From positions 1 to 34,202 of the forward strand of contig NZ_QEHR01000015.1 in NCBI RefSeq assembly GCF_003095375.1: 34,202 nt of DNA. Reading direction: 5' to 3'. This stretch comes from Marixanthomonas spongiae. Lineage in GTDB: Bacteria; Bacteroidota; Bacteroidia; Flavobacteriales; Flavobacteriaceae. Made by a program: the position numbers and the translations under genes. The notes below the pieces were generated by a model. That model was not told the DNA's origin. It saw nothing but the letters and a program-made list of their open reading frames with translations, and did no database searches. Numbering within the stretch: position 1 is the stretch's first letter; each line of letters opens with the position of its first letter. Positions 9,261 through 34,202 of the stretch are shown piece after piece.

Positions 9261-12200
9261 TTACTTGGATAAAATCAATCTATGAATCGATGTTCCTTCT
9301 TCCGAAGTTGCATTGATTATATATACACCATCTGCCATTGCGTTAAAATTAAGCTCTGTTGCCCCGAAAGACGTGCTAACATTATTTACAATCTTACCCG
9401 AACCTAATTCAACTATCGTAATTTGAATAGCTGCACCGAAGGTTTCAGGAATTTCTACCGTTGCCATTCCTCTTGAAGGGTTTGGATAGATTACAATTCC
9501 GTTACCTGATTCAGTAATATCCTCGATGGAAAGTAAAATTTCCTGTGCTTCATACGCACCGATATCACGAACATCATCAAATACAGCTTGATCTATTTGA
9601 TCGTTAAACTGATCGGCTGGATCCCCTGCATTATATGCAAGTGAACCTTCTAATAACTGATGTGTATTGGTCAGTCCACCATTATCTTGTAATGGTCCAA
9701 CCATTGGGTCTATTTCTTCTATATCATTTGCTTGTTCTGGGAACACGCTTTCGTCGTCTGTCCCAATCAAGTTATAATCGTTAGAAGCAAATGTTCCAGA
9801 TACATCTTGACCGTTCGCTCCGTTGTTTAAAGCAACCAAGGTGTTTTTAAGTGACGTATTGGTCAAACTACTAATACCACCGCCATTAGCTAAGGCTTCA
9901 TTCATCGCTATCGTAGCGGCATTGATATCAAAACTGATTCCGTTGTTATAAATTCCACCTCCGGAACCGTTTGCAGTATTTCCTGAAATGGTACTTATCA
10001 TTACAGTTACATCACCGCCATCGGCATTATGGATACCACCACCAGAACTTGTAGCTCCAGAAGCAATATTGTTCGATACAGTAGATGAATTAACTTCTAA
10101 CATACCTCCATTATTGAAGATACCGGCGCCACCATCGTCAGCAGCAGTTCCAAATGAACTGTTTGAATCGATTGTAGATGTTTCAACTATCATCATCGTT
10201 CCACTTTGGTTCCATAGTCCACCACCTTCACGGGCAGCTTCATTTCCTGAAACGATACTTTCTGAAATAGTAATCAATCCGCTGTTTCCTGTTACGTGCA
10301 GACCACCACCGTTACCCGGTACTGCTGTTCCTGCCGTTCCATTTACATCGTTGTTTGTCATATCAGAAGTGGTAAATGTCAATGTACCATCGATCAATTC
10401 TATAGCTCCACCTGCTCTATTTGCAGCATTGGAATCTAACGCAGCATCGGTAATTGTAACATCACCTGCTGTACTCAATATTCCACCACCAGAACCTGAA
10501 GCTCCTGTAGCCATATTATTGGTAATTGCAGTACCATTAACAATATTCAACGTACCTCCATTATTGAAGACACCTCCACCACCATTATCGGCATCAGCTC
10601 CTTCTGCGGTGTTTCCGTCGATCGTCATTCCATCGATTGTCATAACACCTACACTGTTCCAAAGTGCTCCACCTTCAGCAGACGCTGTGTTTCCACTTGC
10701 TGTTCCACCCGTGATGTTAGCATCTCCTTCTCCAGTTATATGCAATCCACCACCGTTACCCGGTGCAGATGCAGTGCTGTTGTTCATTAAATCAACATTC
10801 TCAAGTGTGAGTACATTTCCAGCGATTGAATTATCTTCTATTGCACCTCCAGCTCTCATGGAAGTGTTTCCACTCAATTCAGAATCGGTTACGGTAAGTG
10901 TTCCTTGGTTGTTCAAGATTCCTCCACCGGATCCTGATGCGCCGTCAGCAACATTGTTGCTTACAGTTGCATTCAGTACGGATAGGGTTCCTCCTTCGTT
11001 GAAGATTCCACCGCCACCTTGATCGGCGTCGGCTCCACTTGCGATATTTGCATCAATGGTCGTTCCGTCGATGGTCATTTCACCAGATCCGTTCCAGTAG
11101 GCTCCACCTTCAGCAGACGCCGTGTTTCCACTTGCCGTTCCACCTGTGATGTTTGAGTCTCCAGGACCAGATATGTGCAGTCCACCACCATTACCCGGTG
11201 CAGATGCGGTACTGTTGTTCATTAAATCAACATTTTCAAGTGTCAATACATTTCCAGCGACTGAATTATCTTCAATTGCACCACCAGCTCTCATGGAACT
11301 GTTTCCGCTTAATTCTGAATCGGTTACGGTCAATGAACCTTGATTGTTCAAGATTCCTCCACCAGAACCTAATGCGCCGTCAACAACATTGTTACTTACG
11401 GTTGCATTCAAGACAGAAAGTGTTCCACCTTCGTTGAAGATTCCGCCACCACCTTGATCGGCGTCGGCTCCGCTTGCTGTGTTTGCGTCAACGGTTGTTC
11501 CGTCGATGGTCATGATGCCAGCTCCGTTCCAGTACGCTCCACCTTCAGCAGACGCCGTGTTTCCACTTGCGGTTCCGCCTGTGATGTTTGAGTCTCCAGG
11601 ACCAGATATATGCAATCCACCACCGTTACCCGGTGCAGATGCAGTGCTGTTATTCATTAAATCAACATTCATCAAAGTCAATACGTTTCCGGCAACTGAA
11701 TTTTCTTCAATGGCTCCACCAGCTCTCATAGAACTGTTTCCGCTCAATTCAGAATCAGTTACAGTTAAAGTACCTTGATTGTTCAAGATTCCTCCACCAG
11801 AACCGGATGCTCCGTCAACAACATTGTTGCTTACCGTTGCATTCAATACAGAAAGTGTTCCTCCTTCGTTGAAGATTCCGCCACCACCTTGATCGGCGTC
11901 GGCGCCACTTGCCGTGTTCGCATCAATGGTTGTTCCGTCGATTGTCATTTCACCAGATCCATTCCAAAGACCACCACCTTCGGCAGTTGCAACGTTTCCG
12001 TTTACTGTTCCGTTGGTTATCATAGCGGTACCAGGACCTGTTATATGTAATCCACCACCGTTACCCGGTGCGCTTCCTACTTCGTTATTATCTAAATTGA
12101 CATTAAACAGCGTTATGCTTCCTGCGGTTACCGAAGAATTGTCTTCAATACCTCCACCAGCTCTGTTTGCTGAGTTATTTGAAATTATCGTGTTATTCAC

Positions 12201-12299
12201 GGTTACAGATCCGCCAGCAACATTTTGAATACCACCACCAGAACCAGCAGTTCCATCGGCAAAATTGTTTGTAATTTCTGAAGAGTTCTGTACCATCAA
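9261..12299 (-). CDS. Giant beta-helix surface protein, C-terminal part with T9SS sorting domain (split by TGA)
   Basis: This 1012-codon open frame continues the upstream reading frame in the same phase, directly after an in-frame TGA. It holds about five 145-residue cycles of GG-rich beta-helix rungs, then a region ending DIGAYE (choice-of-anchor Q type), and finally a T9SS C-terminal sorting domain starting about VIYPNPSRGMATVEI and ending IHRLILSK. It has no signal peptide of its own; the nominal start is a TTG next to the nonsense codon, so independent translation and export are improbable. Either the full gene is a recent pseudogene or the TGA is a sequencing error or is read through. 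It converges with the PagL-like gene, 34 bp away. Confidence 0.7.
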   Translation of the reverse strand: MMVQNSSEITNNFADGTAGSGGGIQNVAGGSVTVNNTIISNNSANRAGGGIEDNSSVTAGSITLFNVNLDNNEVGSAPGNGGGLHITGPGTAMITNGTVNGNVATAEGGGLWNGSGEMTIDGTTIDANTASGADADQGGGGIFNEGGTLSVLNATVSNNVVDGASGSGGGILNNQGTLTVTDSELSGNSSMRAGGAIEENSVAGNVLTLMNVDLMNNSTASAPGNGGGLHISGPGDSNITGGTASGNTASAEGGAYWNGAGIMTIDGTTVDANTASGADADQGGGGIFNEGGTLSVLNATVSNNVVDGALGSGGGILNNQGSLTVTDSELSGNSSMRAGGAIEDNSVAGNVLTLENVDLMNNSTASAPGNGGGLHISGPGDSNITGGTASGNTASAEGGAYWNGSGEMTIDGTTIDANIASGADADQGGGGIFNEGGTLSVLNATVSNNVADGASGSGGGILNNQGTLTVTDSELSGNTSMRAGGAIEDNSIAGNVLTLENVDLMNNSTASAPGNGGGLHITGEGDANITGGTASGNTASAEGGALWNSVGVMTIDGMTIDGNTAEGADADNGGGGVFNNGGTLNIVNGTAITNNMATGASGSGGGILSTAGDVTITDAALDSNAANRAGGAIELIDGTLTFTTSDMTNNDVNGTAGTAVPGNGGGLHVTGNSGLITISESIVSGNEAAREGGGLWNQSGTMMIVETSTIDSNSSFGTAADDGGAGIFNNGGMLEVNSSTVSNNIASGATSSGGGIHNADGGDVTVMISTISGNTANGSGGGIYNNGISFDINAATIAMNEALANGGGISSLTNTSLKNTLVALNNGANGQDVSGTFASNDYNLIGTDDESVFPEQANDIEEIDPMVGPLQDNGGLTNTHQLLEGSLAYNAGDPADQFNDQIDQAVFDDVRDIGAYEAQEILLSIEDITESGNGIVIYPNPSRGMATVEIPETFGAAIQITIVELGSGKIVNNVSTSFGATELNFNAMADGVYIINATSEEGTSIHRLILSK

Positions 12300-12774
12300 T
12301 GTTCAGCCATTGTTGAAGATTCCTCCTCCACCTTGATCGGGATCGTTACCACTTGCAGTATTACTGTCTATTGTAGTATTATCTACTTCCATAGTGCTTC
12401 CGGCTTGGTTCCAAAGACCACCACCTTCAGCAGCGGCATCGTTAAGGGAAACCGAACCTCCAAACATAGAAACATTAGCTACGCCACTTACGTGCATTCC
12501 ACCACCGTTTCCTGGGTTTGGCGCTCCAGAAGAGCCATTCACTCCATTAGAATCCAACGACGTATTTGCCATAGAAAGCATTCCATCGATAATTTCAATT
12601 CCACCACCTGCACGGTTTGCAGAATTGTTATCAATACTTCCTCCTATTACAGTTACGTCACCATCGGTTGTCAATACACCTCCACCAGAACCTGAAGTTC
12701 CTGTAGCTGTGTTACTTTGAACAGTGGAATTAACAATTCCTAAGTTTCCTCCGTTGTTGAAGATACCTCCACCG
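10581..12774 (-). repeat. Tandem 435/444-bp coding repeats in the beta-helix gene
   Basis: The anchor ACCTTGATCG or its variant (ACCATTATCG) falls at 10581, 11016, 11451 and 11886, exactly 435 bp apart, and then at 12330 and 12774 (variant), 444 bp apart. Units between about 10740 and 12060 are nearly identical at DNA level; those beyond 12330 are more diverged. Each unit encodes five beta-helix rungs. Such an array can recombine and change copy number, and is a likely assembly problem. Confidence 0.85.
12303..12305 (-). other. In-frame TGA nonsense codon splitting the beta-helix gene
   Basis: The local codons read AAC AAT GGC TGA ACA TTG where sister repeats read AAT AAT GGA GGT ACG TTG. 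TGA thus replaces a conserved glycine codon (Gly-Gly-Thr-Leu), one G-to-T change from GGA. The reading frame continues unchanged for 1013 further sense codons. Confidence 0.9.
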
Positions 12775-15700
12775 CCGTTATCGGCATCGTTACCAGCTGC
12801 GGTATTTATGTTTACCATAGCATCGGTAACAGTCATTGTGGCTCCGGCTTGATTCCAAAGTCCACCACCTTCACTGGCAGCTTCGTTTGCTGAAACTGTA
12901 CCACCATTAATAGAAACTGTTGCAGCGCCACTTACGTGCATTCCTCCTCCGTTACCCGGATTAGGTGTTCCTGCTGTTCCATTAACATCATTAATGCTAA
13001 GTGCTGAATTAGTTAAAGTTACTGAACCTTCAATAACTTCCATACCACCACCGGCACGGTTAGCGCTATTTTGTGAAATCACAGCATCGGTCACAGTTAC
13101 TGAACCACCAGTACTGAAAATTCCACCACCAGAACCTGAGGTTCCGTTTGCCAAGTTGTCAGTGATATTTGTACCAGCCAGTACATCAAGCGTACCTCCA
13201 TTGTTGAAGATACCTCCACCACCATCGTCGGCAGCAGCTCCACTCGCTATGTTGTTTGTAATTGGTGTTCCGTCAACGGTCATTGTTCCTGTTCCATTCC
13301 ATAGTCCACCACCTTCTCGTGCAGCGACATTACTATCAACAGTACCTCCGGTTAACGTAGCATTGGCAGCTCCACTTATGTGTAATCCACCACCGTTACC
13401 TGGTGCGGCTATTGCGGGGGCAACGCCTGCGTTATTGGTGTCTAACGTTACACTGGTAAGGGTTAATGAACCATCAATCAACTCAATACCGCCACCAGCT
13501 CTATTAGCTTGGTTATCGGTTATGATCACTTCGGTAAATGTTACATCTCCAGCGGTACTAAATACACCTCCACCAGAACCTGAAGCTCCGTCAGCGCTGT
13601 TATTTGTTATTTCTGTACCTGCTAAAACATCTAACGTACCTCCATTATTAAAGACTCCACCACCACCATTGGTAGCATCAGCTCCTGAAGCTGTGTTGTT
13701 TGTAATTGGAGTTCCATCAATCGTCATCGTTCCGGTTCCATTCCATAAACCTCCACCTTCGGCAGCAGCAACATTACTGTCAACTGTTCCACCTGTAATG
13801 GTAGTATTTGCAGCTCCACTTATATGCAAAGCACCTCCATTACCTGGAGCGGCTGTTGCGGGGGAAACACCTGCATTATTATTATTTAATGTAGAATTAG
13901 AGACTGTAAGTGAACCGTCAATCAATTCGATACCACCACCGGCTCTATTGGCTCGGTTATCAGTTATAGTTACTTCAGTAAGTGTTACATCTCCAGCAGT
14001 ACTGAATACACCACCACCTGATCCTGAAGCTCCATCAGCAATGTTGTTCACTATATTTGTACCGCTTGCAACGGTTAACGTACCTCCATTGTTAAAGATT
14101 CCACCACCACCATTGGTAGCATCAGCTCCAAAAGCTGTGTTTCCGTCAATAAAAGTATCTGTAAATAAACCTCCAAAAGCTGGGGCTAAAATATTCATGG
14201 TACCTCCATTATTCCACAATCCACCACCTTCACTGGCGGCTGTATTTGCTAATGCAATACCACTAAAAGATACGATTGCTCCGTTTCCAGTTACGTGAAT
14301 TCCTCCGCCATTTCCAGGATTTGGTGTTCCGGCTGTTCCGTTTACGTCATTACTACTAAGATTGGTGTTGATAATATTTGCAACACCATCTATTATTTCA
14401 ATGCCACCACCTGCGCGGTTAGCTCCATTACTTGTTATGAAAGCTCCCGCTATTTCTACAGTTCCACCGGTACTTAAAATAGCGCCACCAGAACCTGATG
14501 TTCCAGTTGCCATATTTCCGAAGATATCAGCAAATCCACTAAATAAACCACCTTGTGCATCTAAAGTACCTCCATCATTGTAAATACCTCCACCACCTTG
14601 TTCAGGGGCATCACCAGTTGCAGTGTTATTGCTTATTGTATTGGAACCTGCCAAGGTCATTGTTCCTGTTCCATTCCAAAGGCCTCCACCTTCTACCGCT
14701 GTGTTGTTTTGAACTAAACAATCGGTAAAAGTTGAGTCTCCGCCTCCACTAATGTGGTAAGCACCACCGTTTCCGGGAGCAGTAGCTCCAGTAGCGGCAT
14801 TATTGTTAAAGGTAACATTGTTGAATTCAAATAAATCACCTGGATTTGATCGTACTTCTATACCGCCACCAGCTCTAACGGCTGTGTTTCCGGTGATTGA
14901 TAAATTATCAACTGTCAATGATCCCATATTGGTTAAGATACCTCCACCAGAACCTGCAGTTCCAGTTGCTGAATTACCATCAATAGTCGAAGAGCCATTT
15001 ACAATCAATGTGCCCATTTCATTATAAATACCACCACCGCCTTGATCGGCATCGGCACCTGTGGCTTCATTGTTTGAAACCTGGGTATCTGTTACGGTCA
15101 TGGTTCCTGAACCATTCCAAAGACCACCACCTTCTACGGCTGTGTTATTTACAAATGTTGAACCAGAAATAGTTGCGTCTGCACTTCCTGTAATATGTAA
15201 AGATCCTCCGTTTCCGGGAGGACCTACTGCTGTATTTCCGTCAAAATTTGAATCTGTGATTGTAATAAGGTCTGAAGAATTTACTTCAATCGCACCACCG
15301 GCACGGTTTGCTGTATTGTTTGTAAATTCAGAATTCATAATAGTCAGCGTTCCACTAGTGTCTTGTCCAATGGCACCTCCACTACTTGAAGCTGCGTTAA
15401 CAGCAGTGTTTCCGTCGAAAAAACTTCCAGAAACCGAAAGGTTCGTGTCAGTTGATCCAATTGCTCCACCGCCGTTAGCGGCATTTGTTGCATTGTTATT
15501 AAATTCAGAATCTATAACATTTGCATTCACAACATTTTGAATTCCTAGTGCCGCACCAGGAACGGATGCTGTGGCATTTTGAAATGTGATTCCTTCGATC
15601 GTTAAATTAGTAAAGTTGGAAGCTCCCAAAAGTCGAGCGGTTCCGTTACCCGAACCGTCTATAATTGTGTTACCAATACCTGTTCCTGTGATAGTAAGGT

Positions 15701-15923
15701 CGTCATCAATAACTATTTGCCCCGTAACGAGATTGATGGTATAATTTGCATTAAAGGTGATTGTATTAGGACCAGCCGTTGCATTAGCGTCGATAACAGC
15801 CTGCCTTAAAGAGCCAGGGCCTGCATCGTTGTTGTTCATAACAACAAATTGTCCATAAGACAATGATGTCGTTAACAGAATAGAAACCAATAAAAAAAGG
15901 CTTCGCGTAGTTGTTCTTTCCAT
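12303..15923 (-). CDS. Giant beta-helix surface protein, N-terminal part with signal peptide (split by TGA)
   Basis: This 1206-aa open frame starts with a signal peptide (core LFLLVSILLTTSLS, cleavage near SYGQ) followed by a segment with GPGSLRQAVIDANA, typical of the first repeat in polymorphic-adhesin-like beta-helix proteins. It then runs through seven cycles of five GG-rich rungs recognisable by GGGGIFNNGGTL, GSGGGVFSTAG, RAGGGIELIDG, GNGGGLHISG and EGGGLWNGTGTM. Translation stops at TGA 12303-12305 in the middle of a rung. The product would be exported by Sec but lacks the T9SS sorting domain encoded downstream. Joined with the next frame it would be a 2220-codon protein, probably surface-attached and adhesive. 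Confidence 0.8.
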   Translation of the reverse strand: MERTTTRSLFLLVSILLTTSLSYGQFVVMNNNDAGPGSLRQAVIDANATAGPNTITFNANYTINLVTGQIVIDDDLTITGTGIGNTIIDGSGNGTARLLGASNFTNLTIEGITFQNATASVPGAALGIQNVVNANVIDSEFNNNATNAANGGGAIGSTDTNLSVSGSFFDGNTAVNAASSSGGAIGQDTSGTLTIMNSEFTNNTANRAGGAIEVNSSDLITITDSNFDGNTAVGPPGNGGSLHITGSADATISGSTFVNNTAVEGGGLWNGSGTMTVTDTQVSNNEATGADADQGGGGIYNEMGTLIVNGSSTIDGNSATGTAGSGGGILTNMGSLTVDNLSITGNTAVRAGGGIEVRSNPGDLFEFNNVTFNNNAATGATAPGNGGAYHISGGGDSTFTDCLVQNNTAVEGGGLWNGTGTMTLAGSNTISNNTATGDAPEQGGGGIYNDGGTLDAQGGLFSGFADIFGNMATGTSGSGGAILSTGGTVEIAGAFITSNGANRAGGGIEIIDGVANIINTNLSSNDVNGTAGTPNPGNGGGIHVTGNGAIVSFSGIALANTAASEGGGLWNNGGTMNILAPAFGGLFTDTFIDGNTAFGADATNGGGGIFNNGGTLTVASGTNIVNNIADGASGSGGGVFSTAGDVTLTEVTITDNRANRAGGGIELIDGSLTVSNSTLNNNNAGVSPATAAPGNGGALHISGAANTTITGGTVDSNVAAAEGGGLWNGTGTMTIDGTPITNNTASGADATNGGGGVFNNGGTLDVLAGTEITNNSADGASGSGGGVFSTAGDVTFTEVIITDNQANRAGGGIELIDGSLTLTSVTLDTNNAGVAPAIAAPGNGGGLHISGAANATLTGGTVDSNVAAREGGGLWNGTGTMTVDGTPITNNIASGAAADDGGGGIFNNGGTLDVLAGTNITDNLANGTSGSGGGIFSTGGSVTVTDAVISQNSANRAGGGMEVIEGSVTLTNSALSINDVNGTAGTPNPGNGGGMHVSGAATVSINGGTVSANEAASEGGGLWNQAGATMTVTDAMVNINTAAGNDADNGGGGIFNNGGNLGIVNSTVQSNTATGTSGSGGGVLTTDGDVTVIGGSIDNNSANRAGGGIEIIDGMLSMANTSLDSNGVNGSSGAPNPGNGGGMHVSGVANVSMFGGSVSLNDAAAEGGGLWNQAGSTMEVDNTTIDSNTASGNDPDQGGGGIFNNG

Positions 15924-29665: not shown

Positions 29666-30079
29666 CTAATGCGGCAACCTACCCTTAACCAATCCATACA
29701 AAAACGTGCCAGCGATAGCGCCAAAAATCACTATCAAGATAGATGCATAACCTGCGCCTGCGAGCACATACATAGGGCCTGGACAAGCACCTGCAAGTGC
29801 CCAACCCAACCCGAAAATAATACCGCCTATTAAATAGCGAGGCACACTTTTGTTTTTTGGTGTAAGGCTCATTTCGCTGCCATCGAAGGGCTTTATGTTT
29901 TTACGTTTTATAAGCTGTACGCCTATGACTCCAAGCACCAAGGCTGAACCCATAATTCCGTACATATGGAAACTGCCAAATTGAAACATTTCATAAATAC
30001 GGAACCAAGATGCTGCTTCAGATTTGAACATTATAATTCCGAAGAAAATACCGATAACTAAATATATAAAATAACGCAT
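29666..30079 (-). CDS. YeeE/YedE-type sulfur transport half-protein (DUF6691 type)
   Basis: This 137-aa protein has four hydrophobic segments. WALAGACPGPMYVLAGAG (Cys99) is the conserved Cys motif of the second half of YeeE/YedE sulfur transporters, here as a separate polypeptide. YeeE binds and passes thiosulfate through a chain of membrane cysteines; paired half-proteins like this one (PmpA/PmpB type) are taken to do likewise. The gene is 3 nt after its partner and surely co-transcribed. Confidence 0.85.
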   Translation of the reverse strand: MRYFIYLVIGIFFGIIMFKSEAASWFRIYEMFQFGSFHMYGIMGSALVLGVIGVQLIKRKNIKPFDGSEMSLTPKNKSVPRYLIGGIIFGLGWALAGACPGPMYVLAGAGYASILIVIFGAIAGTFLYGLVKGRLPH

Positions 30080-30082
30080 AGT

Positions 30083-30640
30083 TTAAAAGATTAAAGGGTA
30101 AAATAAATGAACCATTATCAGCCCACCTATAAAAAAGCCTATGGTGGCTATAAGAGATGGCAACTGAAGGTTGCTTATTCCAGAAATGGAATGACCAGAT
30201 GTACAGCCGCCAGCATATCGCGCACCAAAACCAACTAATAGACCGCCTACTAATAGTATGCTAATGATAAACGGATTGCTTAACGCATCTGCCGCAAAAA
30301 TTTCAGGAGGTAAATAACTTTCGCCAGCACTTGTTATTTGATAATCTTCTGCGAGTTGTTGTGCCACGTTGGGATTAATTTCAACAGTGTTATTGCTCAT
30401 ATAATTTGTAGCAATAAAACCACCGATTACGGCACCCAACACCACCATTAAATTCCAGCGTTGTGCTTTCCAATCAAATTTAAAGAAGTCGGCTGCTTTG
30501 CCACCACCGACTGCCGCACAGGCAGTTCTCAGGTTCGATGACATACCAAATTGCTTTCCTACAAGCAACAAGATAAACATTACAAGTGCAATAAGTGGTC
30601 CGCCTACGTACCACGGCCAAGGTTCATATATAAAATCCAT
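30083..30640 (-). CDS. YeeE/YedE family sulfur transport half-protein (first half)
   Basis: This 185-aa membrane protein has about five hydrophobic segments, with the motif ARYAGGCTSGHSISG (Cys146) diagnostic for YeeE/YedE, plus Cys41 in LRTACAAVGGG. It should form, with the next gene, a channel for thiosulfate or another sulfur species. I start at ATG 30640 (MDFIYEPWPW). The frame is open to 30694, but that start lies upstream of the promoter box at 30658-30665 and inside the palindromic operator. Confidence 0.88.
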   Translation of the reverse strand: MDFIYEPWPWYVGGPLIALVMFILLLVGKQFGMSSNLRTACAAVGGGKAADFFKFDWKAQRWNLMVVLGAVIGGFIATNYMSNNTVEINPNVAQQLAEDYQITSAGESYLPPEIFAADALSNPFIISILLVGGLLVGFGARYAGGCTSGHSISGISNLQLPSLIATIGFFIGGLIMVHLFYPLIF

Positions 30641-30657
30641 ATTAAATAATTTTTGTG

Positions 30658-30730
30658 CAAAGATGACAGTTTTAATAGGTCCAGTTAGTAACAATAGTTA
30701 CAGTAGTATCAATTTTATTTTCTTAATTTG
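30658..30730. promoter_or_regulatory. Divergent promoters around a shared GTAAC-N4-GTTAC operator
   Basis: The palindrome GTAACAATAGTTAC occupies 30688-30701 (centre 30694.5). On the minus strand CATCTTTG (30665-30658) serves yeeE; on the plus strand TTAATTTG (30723-30730) may serve the 51-aa gene. Palindrome centre to last box base is 36.5 and 35.5 bp, placing the centre near -41.5. Both boxes lack a good -33 TTG, as expected of activator-dependent promoters. The 5-4-5 shape is that of CRP/FNR-family sites. Confidence 0.6.
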
Positions 30731-30746
30731 AATAAAAATAAAAACT

Positions 30747-30902
30747 ATGACACGTAATAAAAAAATAAACTTGATTTCTATATTGCTCGCTTTAACCGCT
30801 ATTGCAATGCTTGTAATAGGCATTGTTATGAAGATTCCTGCACCTGCTATTACTGGTATTGGCTTTCTATTGATTGTTTGGGCTTTTCAGGTGCTAAAAT
30901 AA
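30747..30902 (+). CDS. Small 51-aa two-helix membrane protein
   Basis: ATG 30747 to TAA 30902 encodes 51 residues: a basic start (MTRNKKIN), a first hydrophobic helix (about 9-28), a short turn MKIPAPAITG and a second helix (about 33-48) ending FQVLK. I do not recognise a family. Support for a real gene comes from the position, divergent from yeeE behind the shared operator with a start 17 nt from the promoter box, and from the clean membrane pattern. It could be a small subunit of the transport system. Confidence 0.6.
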   Translation: MTRNKKINLISILLALTAIAMLVIGIVMKIPAPAITGIGFLLIVWAFQVLK

Positions 30903-31010
30903 ATAGTTGCTTGTTACAATTGCCCTCATAATATATCTGTAGGATTATATATGTGGCATAGATGTTTAACAAGCTACCGCACCTTTTGTTTTGGAGTTTT
31001 AGAGAGTTAA

Positions 31011-31054
31011 GTAACAAAAGTTACAAACCAAACTTATAATTATTTCTATTTTTG
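31011..31054 (+). promoter_or_regulatory. Second GTAAC-N4-GTTAC operator with -7 box
   Basis: GTAACAAAAGTTAC (31011-31024, centre 31017.5) precedes TATTTTTG (31047-31054). Centre to last box base is 36.5 bp, identical to the yeeE promoter. There is no good -33 TTG. The transcript would start near 31059, only about 5 nt before the GTG at 31064. Confidence 0.6.
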
Positions 31055-31063
31055 TCTTAATTC

Positions 31064-31426
31064 GTGAAAAGTAAAGTTTACATATCGATATTGTTAACCT
31101 TGGTGTTTATGGTAAAACTTGTTGCCATAGATGCAAATGGGCTGAATGCGTTGTTTAACGGAAAAGGAATTTCTTTTGTAAAACCTTTTTGTGAAAAAGA
31201 AAATTTTCAAGAGAGCACCGATAAAACAGCAGATTTTTCGCAAATAGACTTCGGTTCGTCACAAATTGTTGCATTAACGGGTGTTTGCACCTCCCAATTT
31301 CAATTTGAACTTTTCTCTTGGGAATCAACTATCTTAAGCCCTATTACTGTATTAAACACTAATTTTTCTTCCAATTTAAGTTATCCTTACCTAGATAATG
31401 ATTCTCCGCCACCCCGCTTGGCATAA
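31064..31426 (+). CDS. Unknown 120-aa exported protein in the sulfur cluster
   Basis: The start is GTG at 31064 (MKSKVYISILL); the next in-frame ATG would remove most of the signal sequence. Residues 5-22 are hydrophobic, consistent with a signal peptide or anchor, and the remainder is polar with two cysteines (PFCEKEN, TGVCTSQ) and a C-terminal SPPPRLA. I do not recognise the family. It is the first gene after the second operator and probably begins the doxX-dsrE-soxB operon. The predicted leader is very short. Confidence 0.6.
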   Translation: MKSKVYISILLTLVFMVKLVAIDANGLNALFNGKGISFVKPFCEKENFQESTDKTADFSQIDFGSSQIVALTGVCTSQFQFELFSWESTILSPITVLNTNFSSNLSYPYLDNDSPPPRLA

Positions 31427-31551
31427 TTTCTATTTAATGATTTTTTAAGTCGATTCTTCCGTAGAGGCTGTTCGTAAACAAGAATTAAGCTGTATCTATT
31501 TATTGCGGAAAGACATCGCACAAAAGAAAACACTCTTTTAACTATTTTACA

Positions 31552-31950
31552 ATGGCTACCAAAATTTTAGTAAGCCGTCGTTCTGTACAATTGTTACGTA
31601 TACTGGTAAGTGGCATATTTCTCGTTGCAAGTTTTAATCACTTGCTTAATGTAGAAAAAACCATCCAACGTATTGAACAAGCCAATTTTAAAGGTATCGC
31701 TTATTTTTTTGGCGAACCCCAATGGCTTATTATACTATCTGGTATCGTAATGCTCATAGCTGGTTTTCTGTTTCTCATTGGTTATAAAACCAAGTGGGCA
31801 GCAATTGTACTAATGGCAGTTTTAATACCTATTACATTAACCATTCAAGTGGGCCAGATTACAACTCTTGGACCGCTCTTTAAAAATATAGCAATTATCG
31901 GTGGACTTCTCTTTTTTGTACTGAATGACACCAATAACCTTTTAAAATAA
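31552..31950 (+). CDS. DoxX family membrane protein
   Basis: This 132-aa protein has four membrane helices and the DoxX pattern: LLRILVSGIFLVASFNHLLN in helix 1, then an EPQWLIILSGIVMLIAGFLF helix and a C-terminal KNIAIIGGLLFFVLND. DoxX/DoxD-type proteins are membrane parts of thiosulfate:quinone oxidoreductase in archaea and appear in many sulfur and oxidative-stress modules. Here the 6-nt gap to the dsrE-like gene links it to sulfur handling. A role in passing electrons to quinone is inferred. Confidence 0.8.
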   Translation: MATKILVSRRSVQLLRILVSGIFLVASFNHLLNVEKTIQRIEQANFKGIAYFFGEPQWLIILSGIVMLIAGFLFLIGYKTKWAAIVLMAVLIPITLTIQVGQITTLGPLFKNIAIIGGLLFFVLNDTNNLLK

Positions 31951-31956
31951 ACAAAA

Positions 31957-32379
31957 ATGAAAACGTATTTATTTAGTTCCCTTTTTTTAATGTTAACCCT
32001 GTTCGGAACCCTTACCACACAGGCGCAACAAACAAATGACAACAAAAACAATTATGTGGTATTGACAAAAAAAGTACCACAATTACAACCCATTATTTTA
32101 ACGGCGGAAGCTTTAAAACTAGAAGAAGGAGATGCTTTTGGAGAGTTTAAAGTGGTTATCTGCGGAAAAGGAATAGGTGATATCACCAATACCGAAAAAA
32201 TAAGTGGGTTTATCAAAAAAGCTAAAAAAGCAGGTGTACAAATTGTTGCTTGCGGATTTTCACTTAATAAATTCAACATAGACAGAGCTAATGTTCCAAA
32301 AGAAATTAAAGTAGTTGATAACGGAATACTCTATAATTTCCAACTTCAAAAGAAAGGATACAAAAGCATTAGTTTATAA
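31957..32379 (+). CDS. Exported DsrE-like sulfur-carrier protein
   Basis: This 140-aa protein has a signal peptide (cleavage near TQAQQ, residue 24) and a DsrE/DsrF-like alpha/beta domain. Cysteines in VVICGKG (Cys69) and IVACGFSLNKF (Cys99) sit at places where DsrE-family proteins carry sulfane sulfur as persulfide. Because of the signal peptide it should act in the periplasm, unlike classical cytosolic DsrEFH. It lies between doxX and the soxB-like gene with short gaps of 6 and 23 nt. Confidence 0.8.
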   Translation: MKTYLFSSLFLMLTLFGTLTTQAQQTNDNKNNYVVLTKKVPQLQPIILTAEALKLEEGDAFGEFKVVICGKGIGDITNTEKISGFIKKAKKAGVQIVACGFSLNKFNIDRANVPKEIKVVDNGILYNFQLQKKGYKSISL

Positions 32380-32402
32380 TTATAAAAAGAAAAACAAAAA
32401 GA

Positions 32403-34061
32403 ATGAAAACAAATAATAAAATATTAGTATCAAGCATTGCCTTGATAGCATTAGCCTTAGTAACTGTCGCTTTCACGCCGGAAAAATCAAAAGCTATGAA
32501 GCCTACGGAGACATCAAAGGATACGTTGAGTGTTACTATATTACAAACAGCAGATATACACGGCCAGCTCGATACACACCCTGAACTTTTCTGGGAAAAC
32601 GAGCAGATAGTTTTTAAAAATCGGGGTGGTCTTGCCAATATCAAAACACTTTTTGAACAGGAACGTCAAAAAAATCCAAACCGCACCCTAATTGTAGATG
32701 GTGGCGATTTAATTCAAGGAAGTGGTTACACGGCGCTTTCCGATGGAAAAGTAATGCCCGAGCTTATAAAGAATATGGGGTACGATGTTATAATTCCGGG
32801 TAATTGGGAAGTAGTTTACGGTAAAGAGATAATGATGGATGTGATGAATGGCTACAATACCGATGTTGTTGCCCAAAATATGTATCACGACGATAGCGAA
32901 GAACCCTTATTTCCTGCTTATTCCATTAAAGAAATTGAAGGAGTACGCATTGGGTTTATGGGTATTAACGACCCCGATGTGCCCGTACGCCAAAACCCTA
33001 TCTTTAGTGAAGGAATCTCATTTAGCGGCCTGACAGAAGATTTAAAAAAACAAGTGGATGATTTGAAGGTGAAAGAAAACCTAGATGTACTCTTTTTGGT
33101 AACCCATATTGGTATTTTTAAACAAGTAGAGCTTGCTAACAACCCCATTTCTGAAAATGTTGACTATATATTAGGAAATGATACCCACGAGCGTGTGCGC
33201 AAACCAATACAAGGTAAATATGCTAAGGTTACAGAGCCTGGAGCTTTTGGTTCGTTTGTAGGGAAACTAACCTTACATTTTGTAGACGGAAAGCTAGTAG
33301 GCGATGATTATGAACTTATTGATGTAGATCCAGCCGTTTATCCTGCCGATACAGAAATGCAGCAATTGGTAAATAAAGCAAAAGAGCCTTACGAAGCACA
33401 TTTAGAAACCGTAGTAGGATATACTGAAACACCCCTCTACCGTTACCTTACCGTAGAAAACCCAATGGATAATATGATTACCGATGCAGCCCGTTGGAAA
33501 ACAGGTGCCGATATTTCTATTTCCAATGGTTTTAGGTTTGGAAACCCTATTGTGCCCGAAAATGGTCAAGCTGCGCCAATTACCAGAGCCAATTTATGGA
33601 ATTTACTTCCCGTAAATGAAAAAATAAAAACAGGAAGAGCCACCGGAAAACAGATTAAAAATTGGTTGGAAAAAGAGATGCACAATGCTTTTTCAAAAAA
33701 CCCTACCGAACGTTTTGGTGGTTGGTTAGTACGATTTTCAGGGATGAAAGTGGACTTTAACAGTCAAAATGAAAAGGGAGAACGTATAAAAAGCATCACA
33801 GTAAACGGCGAGACAATGCAAGATAACGAATACTATACCATTTCGGCTTGTGTTCGCCCTGGAGATCCTTTAGACAACCTATGTAGAATGCCTAATGTAA
33901 AAGATGTTAAGGTAAAAGATTATACCATTCACGAGGTTGTAGAAGAATATCTTCAGAAAAACTCTCCTGTTTCGCCAACCTTAGAAGGAAGAGCCTATTG
34001 TGAATATTTGGGTGTTAATTCCTTTTCAACCGTACCCGAGACAAAATATCAATTTAAATAA
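32403..34061 (+). CDS. SoxB-like metallophosphoesterase/5'-nucleotidase family hydrolase
   Basis: This 552-aa periplasmic protein has a signal peptide (about 1-30). Metal motifs are TADIHGQLD (Asp51, His53), VDGGD (Asp102), PGNWE (133-136), VTHIG (His235) and GNDTHE (His262). Ordinary 5'-nucleotidases have GNHE; the Trp instead of His is the SoxB signature (GHWE in SoxB). The C-terminal half, including ACVRPGDPLDNLCRMPNVKD and a SPVSPTLEGRAY end, also resembles SoxB, which releases sulfate from SoxYZ-bound sulfonate. No SoxYZ is encoded nearby, so the carrier may be the DsrE-like protein. General 5'-nucleotidase activity is the main alternative. Confidence 0.75.
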   Translation: MKTNNKILVSSIALIALALVTVAFTPEKSKAMKPTETSKDTLSVTILQTADIHGQLDTHPELFWENEQIVFKNRGGLANIKTLFEQERQKNPNRTLIVDGGDLIQGSGYTALSDGKVMPELIKNMGYDVIIPGNWEVVYGKEIMMDVMNGYNTDVVAQNMYHDDSEEPLFPAYSIKEIEGVRIGFMGINDPDVPVRQNPIFSEGISFSGLTEDLKKQVDDLKVKENLDVLFLVTHIGIFKQVELANNPISENVDYILGNDTHERVRKPIQGKYAKVTEPGAFGSFVGKLTLHFVDGKLVGDDYELIDVDPAVYPADTEMQQLVNKAKEPYEAHLETVVGYTETPLYRYLTVENPMDNMITDAARWKTGADISISNGFRFGNPIVPENGQAAPITRANLWNLLPVNEKIKTGRATGKQIKNWLEKEMHNAFSKNPTERFGGWLVRFSGMKVDFNSQNEKGERIKSITVNGETMQDNEYYTISACVRPGDPLDNLCRMPNVKDVKVKDYTIHEVVEEYLQKNSPVSPTLEGRAYCEYLGVNSFSTVPETKYQFK

Positions 34062-34066
34062 AAGCG

Positions 34067-34096
34067 ATGAAAACAAATCCTAAGTTCAACAAATAA
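34067..34096 (+). pseudogene. Possible truncated gene start (10 codons)
   Basis: ATGAAAACAAATCC opens a reading frame that stops after nine residues (MKTNPKFNK). The first four codons copy the start of the soxB-like gene (ATGAAAACAAAT at 32403), including the spacing to an upstream AAG-rich stretch. It may be the remnant of a further operon gene or chance. Confidence 0.25.
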
Positions 34097-34104
34097 GTGC
34101 AACT

Positions 34105-34141
34105 CAAATTAAAAATCATTGGGGGCTAGCCCCCAATGATT
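34105..34141 (-). terminator. Perfect 28-bp palindrome, probable leftward terminator
   Basis: The palindrome spans 34114-34141, with arms of 14 bp and core GGGGGCTAGCCCCC. On the minus strand it runs into TTTTTAATTTG, a moderate T tract; on the plus strand no T run follows. It could terminate the RNA expected from the leftward promoter at 34194-34201, and also lies 52 bp past the soxB-like stop. Confidence 0.5.
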
Positions 34142-34193
34142 GGCCAAGTGCTAAATTTGCGTTGCAATGAAATATAAACAGCTCAGCCGAGAG

Positions 34194-34201
34194 CAAAGAT
34201 A
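34194..34201 (-). promoter_or_regulatory. Leftward -7 box at the right edge
   Basis: TATCTTTG followed by C (minus strand, 34201-34194) is an optimal TAnnTTTG box. The -33 region is beyond the window. A transcript from near 34189 would end at the palindrome after about 85 nt and has no ORF. Confidence 0.4.
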
Positions 34202-34202
34202 C

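Follow-up and report, generated by a model that had tools for sequence, protein, structure and literature searches.

A candidate SoxYZ-free sulfur oxidation module of Bacteroidota that combines a SoxB-like hydrolase with DoxX and an exported DsrE protein

Contig NZ_QEHR01000015.1 of Marixanthomonas spongiae (34,202 nucleotides, analysed in its entirety; termed the window below, or C15 within its own genome) carries close to its end the genes for a DoxX membrane protein, an exported protein of the DsrE family and a dimetal hydrolase related to SoxB. We tentatively interpret these genes as the core of a periplasmic, quinone-linked module for the oxidation of thiosulfate or polythionates, which would operate without SoxYZ and in which DsrE would serve as sulfur acceptor. 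This interpretation is based on a Trp/Arg residue pair in the hydrolase, the co-occurrence of the hydrolase with DsrE in 19 of 19 genomes, DoxA-domain genes next to DsrE, fusions of DoxX with DsrE, a TlpA-like thioredoxin and further sulfur-related genes on a second contig (C12), and a search for SoxZ that found none in 53 of 53 genomes carrying the SoxB-like gene. The three core genes are:

31552..31950, plus strand: DoxX membrane protein, candidate quinone-linked partner (PF07681, 43.8 bits)
31957..32379, plus strand: exported DsrE-family protein, candidate sulfur acceptor or carrier (PF02635, 25.3 bits against a cut-off of 22.7; Cys residues C99 and C69)
32403..34061, plus strand: SoxB-like dimetal hydrolase of the GNWE/D260 clade (TIGR04486 is the top model, below its cut-off)

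The first-pass annotation of this DNA had grouped these genes with two YeeE halves, and all five open reading frames (ORFs) were confirmed by position and by family matches. Since only 6 bases separate DoxX from DsrE and 23 bases DsrE from the SoxB-like gene, the three genes resemble an operon.

The hydrolase contains the Pfam domains Metallophos and 5_nucleotid_C. Its top NCBIfam model is SoxB (TIGR04486, 270.9 bits; the next model reaches 177.5), and its top match in the PDB is Thermus SoxB (2wdc, E 2e-29), in which SHWE is aligned with the GNWE motif of the window protein. We aligned 112 proteins, comprising 85 of the GNWE or window type (the window protein, the top match from each of 80 further loci, two proteins from relatives and two from plasmids), 18 of a second clade, three canonical SoxB and six nucleotidase-like proteins. 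GNWE is present in the window and in 80 of 80 fetched loci, where the nucleotidase motif GNH[ED] with its catalytic His was not found; as the group was defined by this motif, N134, W135 and E136 are given by the grouping. D260, R378, C483 and C494 each occur in 85 of 85 GNWE rows, the last two as a Cys pair specific to the clade. W135 is always paired with R378, in the window type as in the second clade (18/18) and canonical SoxB (3/3), and H135 is paired with G378 in all six nucleotidase-like proteins. The hydrolase shows the broad signature of SoxB, with Trp where nucleotidases have their catalytic His and with Arg at 378. At the positions corresponding to metal ligands of UshA and SoxB, D51 and H53 are kept in 84 of 85 GNWE rows and D102, H235 and H262 in all of them; D260 is a further possible ligand. 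In a tree of 56 rows, which included 28 of the 85 GNWE proteins, the window type forms one branch (support 100/100) apart from canonical SoxB (100/100) and the nucleotidases, with the second SoxB-like clade beside it; deeper joins are unsure because of long branches (UshA, the 2wdc part, Runella). Judged by residues and tree position, the hydrolase is nearer to SoxB than to nucleotidases and forms a clade of its own.

We then asked how the SoxB-like gene and DsrE are distributed in 299 Flavobacteriaceae genomes, each at least 90% complete. This search scored only some of the initial candidates in a genome (4 and up to 13), so that absences are not certain. The SoxB-like clade, counted at more than 890 bits, was found in 19 genomes and DsrE in 49; two genomes with weaker SoxB matches (281 and 294 bits), both containing DsrE, were left out. 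All 19 SoxB-like genomes also contain DsrE, always within 5 kb, and in 16 of them within 150 bases on the same strand. This co-occurrence is significant (Fisher 3.8e-17; counted by genus, 16/16 vs 37/203, 5.9e-14), with p-values inflated by relatedness. The relation is one-way: the SoxB-like gene comes with DsrE, not the reverse.

A similar picture emerged from public genomes, a scan of which gave 116 relatives and 80 loci that were kept; these 80 and the window are the 81 loci referred to in this text. Using tblastn, we located DsrE in 66 of 81 loci within 2.5 kb upstream of the SoxB-like gene and on its strand; in 62 of them the distance is at most 150 bases. DoxX lies within 2.5 kb upstream in 60 loci. 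Clustering of the ORFs revealed a recurring order of small protein, DoxX, DsrE, SoxB-like and TlpA, in which the TlpA-like thioredoxin directly follows the SoxB-like gene in 39 of the 81 loci. Frequent companions are MBL-rhodanese, TauE, YeeE halves, Crp and cytochrome bd, and occasional ones DsbD, a second SoxB-like gene and a SoxA/TsdA-type cytochrome; neighbours were mostly labelled by eye, with family scans for examples. The neighbourhood is recurrent, an observation that the first-pass annotation had named as supporting if made in genomes lacking soxYZ. Among 60 relatives, a match to the SoxB-like protein at E 1e-60 was obtained in 5 genomes, own genome included, and four of the six other genomes of the genus have none; the gene is therefore patchily distributed.

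The window DsrE protein scores above the gathering threshold of PF02635, has an N-terminus that looks signal-like by eye, and contains an invariant cysteine (C99, 76/76) and a second, less conserved one (C69, 63/76). DoxX retains H30 in 60 of 60 proteins. In Pontibacter (L077, L080, L084, L091, L092) and Salegentibacter sp. 24 (L063), DoxX and DsrE form a single polypeptide. DoxA, in turn, exceeds the cut-off in 29 of the 299 genomes (one further match below the cut-off was dropped). DsrE is present in 19 of these (Fisher 2.5e-10), and 17 of the 29 encode it within 2 kb of the DoxA-domain gene and on its strand. DoxA is found in 0 of 19 genomes with the SoxB-like gene and in 29 of 280 without it, an apparent mutual exclusion that is not significant (p 0.23).

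To see what accompanies DsrE where the SoxB-like gene is missing, we inspected ten regions from 10 of the 30 genomes concerned. Five (L135, L136, L137, L139, L140) show the order small Cys protein, DoxX and DsrE, to which TlpA may or may not be added; of the two weaker SoxB matches, one belongs to the L140 genome (G216) but lies at another place. In L138, L141, L142 and L143, a protein of 338-339 amino acids follows DsrE, and L142 also has a DoxX-like ORF before DsrE. The proteins following DsrE in L138 and L141 are fusions of DoxD and DoxA (PF04173 and PF07680, E 1.5e-56 to 3.5e-52; the pair of DsrE and fusion lies at L138:4705-6156 and L141:6172-7612), and DoxA is located after DsrE in all four genomes. 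DoxDA oxidizes thiosulfate with quinone (PMC6335251), and DoxAD has been noted in Bacteroidetes by a paper that also cautions against mistaking DoxX proteins for DoxD (PMC6704655). The DoxA-domain neighbours in 17 genomes and the DoxX-DsrE fusions support a tie between the exported DsrE and a quinone-linked, sulfur-oxidizing membrane protein, in agreement with the quinone link initially suggested for DoxX. The tenth region, L134, encodes DoxX, DsrE and TlpA together with a short remnant of a second-clade SoxB gene (L134:4706-5098), suggesting that SoxB was lost there while the DsrE unit was retained.

Because the contig is broken at a repeat, the absence of SoxYZ cannot be judged from the window alone. 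We searched 53 Bacteroidota carrier genomes, namely that of M. spongiae itself, those of three relatives and those belonging to 49 of the 80 loci (L057 was left out). SoxZ was found in 0 of 53, that is, neither in the own genome nor in the 52 others, and was recovered from the Paracoccus plasmid used as positive control (1/1); SoxY was not found in the own genome in a search without positive control. The SoxA/TsdA cytochrome (PF21342) was likewise not detected in the own genome, with 2/2 plasmid controls positive, and is present in 15 of 53 carriers. In 38 of the 53, own genome included, both SoxZ and a SoxA/TsdA-type cytochrome were not found; SoxX and SoxCD were not searched. The SoxYZ carrier (SoxY with the above limit) and the SoxA loader of canonical Sox were not found in M. 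spongiae, and neither was the tsdA gene of an Erythrobacter-type TsdA-SoxB pathway. The first-pass annotation had read the lack of SoxYZ and SoxAX from the window; the former agrees with the genome-wide search, and the latter applies to the SoxA/TsdA cytochrome of the own genome and not to carriers in general. A close relative of the putative SQR of sister loci (labelled by eye) was not found in the own genome, which gave only a weak match (E 5.9e-4).

The contig ends 141 bases past the SoxB-like gene, inside a repeated stretch. Identical copies of the final 113 bases are present at C17:1-113, C21:4-116 and C3:386482-386594 of the same genome, and an insertion-sequence-like repeat therefore probably broke the assembly at this point; it may be the start of an IS30-type transposase. 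Contig C12 opens with the TlpA-like orthologue of the gene that trails SoxB-like genes in relatives, followed by DsbD, MBL-rhodanese, a second DsrE-like protein, a putative sulfate exporter (PF03601), rhodanese, another MBL-rhodanese, TauE and a Crp-type regulator. The second DsrE-like protein scores slightly below the Pfam cut-off (22.2 against 22.7 bits) and reaches 113.8 bits with a purpose-built DsrE profile. Given the gene order in relatives and the similar element ends, the module of M. spongiae probably carries on in C12 with TlpA, DsbD, MBL-rhodanese, TauE and Crp.

From gene content, conservation and association, we infer the following reactions. DoxX, or the DoxD-DoxA protein in sister genomes, would form a quinone-linked sulfur loader with the exported DsrE: thiosulfate, a polythionate or a persulfide would be oxidatively joined to Cys99 of DsrE, and the electrons would pass to the quinone pool. 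The SoxB-like protein, by its family and signature residues, could split off sulfate, either from the S-sulfonate on loaded DsrE or from that of a polythionate. TlpA, fed by DsbD, might keep the thiol usable, as SoxV/SoxW and SoxS service the thiol in Sox (PMC10451225). Leftover sulfane sulfur could be imported via the paired YeeE halves and oxidized to sulfite by the MBL-rhodanese proteins, with TauE as the likely sulfite exporter. A more specific version of this scheme is a real possibility, though not a probable one: a Bacteroidota thiosulfate pathway in which DsrE would replace SoxYZ as covalent carrier and DoxX or DoxDA would replace SoxAX as loader, with electrons going directly to quinone. 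The DsrE-bound sulfonate would then be hydrolysed by the separate SoxB clade, which has an Asp residue at the metal site and a Cys pair of its own.

Several observations weigh against the proposed module. First, in 30 of the 49 genomes with DsrE no SoxB-like gene accompanies it, and DsrE is therefore not a dedicated carrier of the SoxB substrate. Conversely, in 15 of 81 SoxB-like loci the 2.5 kb upstream hold no DsrE gene of the same orientation, and tblastn detected none at all in the fetched stretch of nine (L012, L013, L042, L068, L070, L071, L085, L086, L087); ORF clustering assigns a distant DsrE to L012 and L013, which leaves seven, all these locus counts covering the fetched stretches. 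Second, in the AlphaFold model of DsrE (mean predicted local distance difference test score 88.7), C99 closes strand 94-99. As modelled, this residue is the end of a core strand in a compact fold and not part of a swinging arm as in SoxY; since a minimal conjugate length is required to reach the metals of SoxB (PMC5336275), such a geometry argues against delivery from DsrE to SoxB. Third, the hydrolase remains below the curated TIGR04486 cut-off of 550 bits and does not qualify as a SoxB equivalog, and its D260 occupies the position of the leading His in the GHxH motif, a residue kept as His by 27 of 27 remaining rows. Finally, the window DoxX has no DoxD or DoxA match, SURF4 and MauE remain under cut-off, and the DoxD and DoxA domains that define DoxDA thiosulfate:quinone oxidoreductase are missing from it; no DoxA was found in the own genome, and no DoxX in the fetched stretch of 15 of 81 loci. 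The first-pass interpretation is thus partly supported: DsrE and DoxX are strongly associated in place of SoxZ and (in the own genome) SoxA/TsdA, which were not found, but delivery of sulfur from DsrE to SoxB is a conjecture.

The main rival is a route as in Erythrobacter flavus, in which the SoxB-like enzyme would hydrolyse tetrathionate or trithionate directly without a protein carrier, and DoxX, DsrE and TlpA would handle persulfide sulfur in parallel or make tetrathionate. We regard it as a real possibility, though not a probable one. In E. flavus 21-3, sulfur globules almost completely ceased to form once tsdA or one particular SoxB-like gene had been deleted, while the loss of another two SoxB-like genes and of two more genes in the cluster had no effect; the SoxB-like gene with an effect is annotated as bifunctional metallophosphatase/5'-nucleotidase, and tetrathionate is the substrate proposed for SoxB by the authors (PMC7608252). 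SoxB also acts on trithionate in vitro (PMC5336275). Such a route would fit the SoxA/TsdA-type cytochrome in 15 of 53 carriers, the DsrE genes without SoxB-like partner in 30 genomes and the seven to nine loci without a nearby DsrE. On a mobilizable plasmid of Pontibacter akesuensis (L092), the module even comes with a SoxA/TsdA-type cytochrome beside the SoxB-like gene; of the three genes of the SoxB/nucleotidase group on this plasmid, one is of the window type, one of the second type and one nucleotidase-like. However, the cytochrome was not found in M. spongiae and 37 other carriers of the 53, and a SoxB-like gene without DsrE was never seen in the 299-genome sample.

Alternatively, the module could clear reactive sulfur as a persulfide or sulfide detoxification system, with the SoxB-like protein as a clean-up hydrolase for S-sulfonated thiols. 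Its neighbours MBL-rhodanese, rhodanese, TauE, YeeE and the Crp regulator, as well as the cytochrome bd genes near several loci, would suit this function. Yet the gene beside DsrE in 17 genomes belongs, by its DoxA domain, to a known thiosulfate:quinone oxidoreductase family, and M. spongiae lacks the close SQR relative mentioned above, which makes this explanation unlikely. A plain 5'-nucleotidase or UDP-sugar hydrolase with incidental neighbours, as the Pfam domains of the hydrolase and the annotation of its plasmid relatives (bifunctional metallophosphatase/5'-nucleotidase) might suggest, is hard to reconcile with the Trp at the catalytic position of the window protein and of its counterparts in 80 of 80 loci, R378 in 85 of 85 proteins and the recurring sulfur neighbourhood. 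A C-terminal GGDG[YF] motif, which we presume to mark nucleotidases, is missing from 85 of 85 GNWE rows, a weak point as just two of six nucleotidase-like rows have it.

Compared with known systems, the module as we propose it is a variant of SoxB-dependent sulfur oxidation and no new category. It shares with Sox (SoxXABYZ, SoxCD, SoxVW/S; Paracoccus, Thermus) a SoxB-related dimetal hydrolase, a periplasmic thioredoxin with a CcdA/DsbD-type electron feed and nearby YeeE-type genes, but differs in that SoxZ (53 carriers) and a SoxA/TsdA cytochrome (own genome) were not found, with DsrE and DoxX instead, and in a hydrolase clade with D260, N134 and a SoxB score below cut-off. The TsdA-SoxB-SdoAB pathway of E. 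flavus (PMC7608252) is the closest precedent: it also employs a SoxB-like protein without SoxYZ and MBL-rhodanese sulfur dioxygenases, but requires TsdA, and the word DsrE is not used in the text of that paper. The distinct Bacteroidota pathway envisaged in the first-pass annotation is, given this precedent, only partly new. In Bohai Sea sediment, SoxB without other Sox genes was reported for 21 metagenome bins, eight of them with TsdA (PMC12345210). DoxDA of the S4I pathway (Acidianus, Acidithiobacillus) resembles the module in that 17 of the 299 Flavobacteriaceae genomes have a DoxA-domain gene next to the exported DsrE, whereas the window contains DoxX without a DoxD or DoxA match at cut-off. 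Likewise, DsrE/DsrEFH and TusA-type sulfur transfer involves the DsrE family with one invariant Cys, but the sulfur of DsrEFH goes to DsrC within the cytoplasm (PMC12345210), while the module DsrE is exported and tied to DoxX/DoxDA and the SoxB-like protein. No paper joining SoxB, DoxX and DsrE was found in open-licence PubMed Central.

The ability to oxidize thiosulfate is usually predicted from sox genes, tsdA or doxD. If the proposed module works in this way, genomes annotated with a 5'-nucleotidase and a DoxX protein would be those of sulfur oxidizers, exported DsrE proteins would gain a role, and a second solution to carrier-bound sulfur oxidation would exist. Single-gene tests are possible in cultured carriers, e.g. 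Leeuwenhoekiella, Salegentibacter, Christiangramia and Pontibacter.

The window contains four further features next to the core genes:

29666..30079, minus strand: YeeE/YedE half (DUF6691/Sulf_transp), putative sulfur-compound importer subunit (PF20398, 48.2 bits; PF04143, 45.9 bits)
30083..~30640, minus strand: other YeeE/YedE half (Sulf_transp; PF04143, 67.9 bits)
31064..31426, plus strand: small exported-looking protein of 120 amino acids with a GTG start, two invariant cysteines (C43 and C75) and a C-terminal PPPR
34090..34202, no strand: end of the repeated, insertion-sequence-like stretch at the assembly break (113 bases recurring identically)

The YeeE halves are divergent from DoxX-DsrE-SoxB-like and do not belong to their operon, a point overlooked in the first-pass annotation; they resemble the split transporter PmpA/PmpB (PMC11582611). 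The protein at 30083..30640 matches TsuA weakly (NF052577, 42.9 bits against a cut-off of 400). Its ORF as listed extends to a TTG at 30694, and the orthologue in L014 begins at an ATG equivalent to ~30640.

The small protein, also overlooked at first, precedes DoxX. In 59 of 81 loci its gene is located upstream of the SoxB-like one; both cysteines are kept in 59 of 59 aligned proteins, and comparison with Pfam, NCBIfam and PHROG gave no substantial match. Contig C1 of the own genome has another copy, which is accompanied by a TlpA-like gene of its own and adjoins a response-regulator-like gene (L118:7047-8263), with no DoxX, DsrE or SoxB within the 14 kb viewed. These features would suit a sulfur carrier or sulfur sensor acting instead of DsrE, but the protein lacks similarity to any known family and similar small proteins precede transport genes in Bacteroidota, so that we consider such a role very improbable.

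A simple lipobox pattern was recognized in 42 of 85 window-type SoxB-like proteins; the window copy has no Cys there (32403-32500), and its membrane anchoring may differ from that of the lipobox orthologues. Members of the second SoxB-like clade, with the W/R signature, are encoded at L010:11503-12930, L014:14492-15922, L094:11992-13434, L125:9992-11434, L124:4001-5428 and L128:5034-6467; they are carried by Alphaproteobacteria and Bacillota plasmids, in the vicinity of TlpA, TauE, MBL, DsrE, CcdA, DsbA or TusA genes. Their N-termini appear, by eye, to be devoid of a signal peptide, and these proteins are possibly cytoplasmic thiosulfohydrolase-like enzymes.

Promoter-like signals (10, against a shuffle mean of 15.8) and terminator-like signals (6 against 4.5) are not clearly above shuffled sequences. 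On C12, the frame of the MBL-rhodanese gene at L116:8846-10177 opens late, its motif reads ETHFQTDF and the expected reading contains two stops; this gene may be decaying. Elsewhere in the window, at 9261-15923, two adjoining minus-strand ORFs of 1206 and 1012 amino acids, repeat-rich and of the surface-protein type, lie few bases apart and probably represent a single long interrupted gene.

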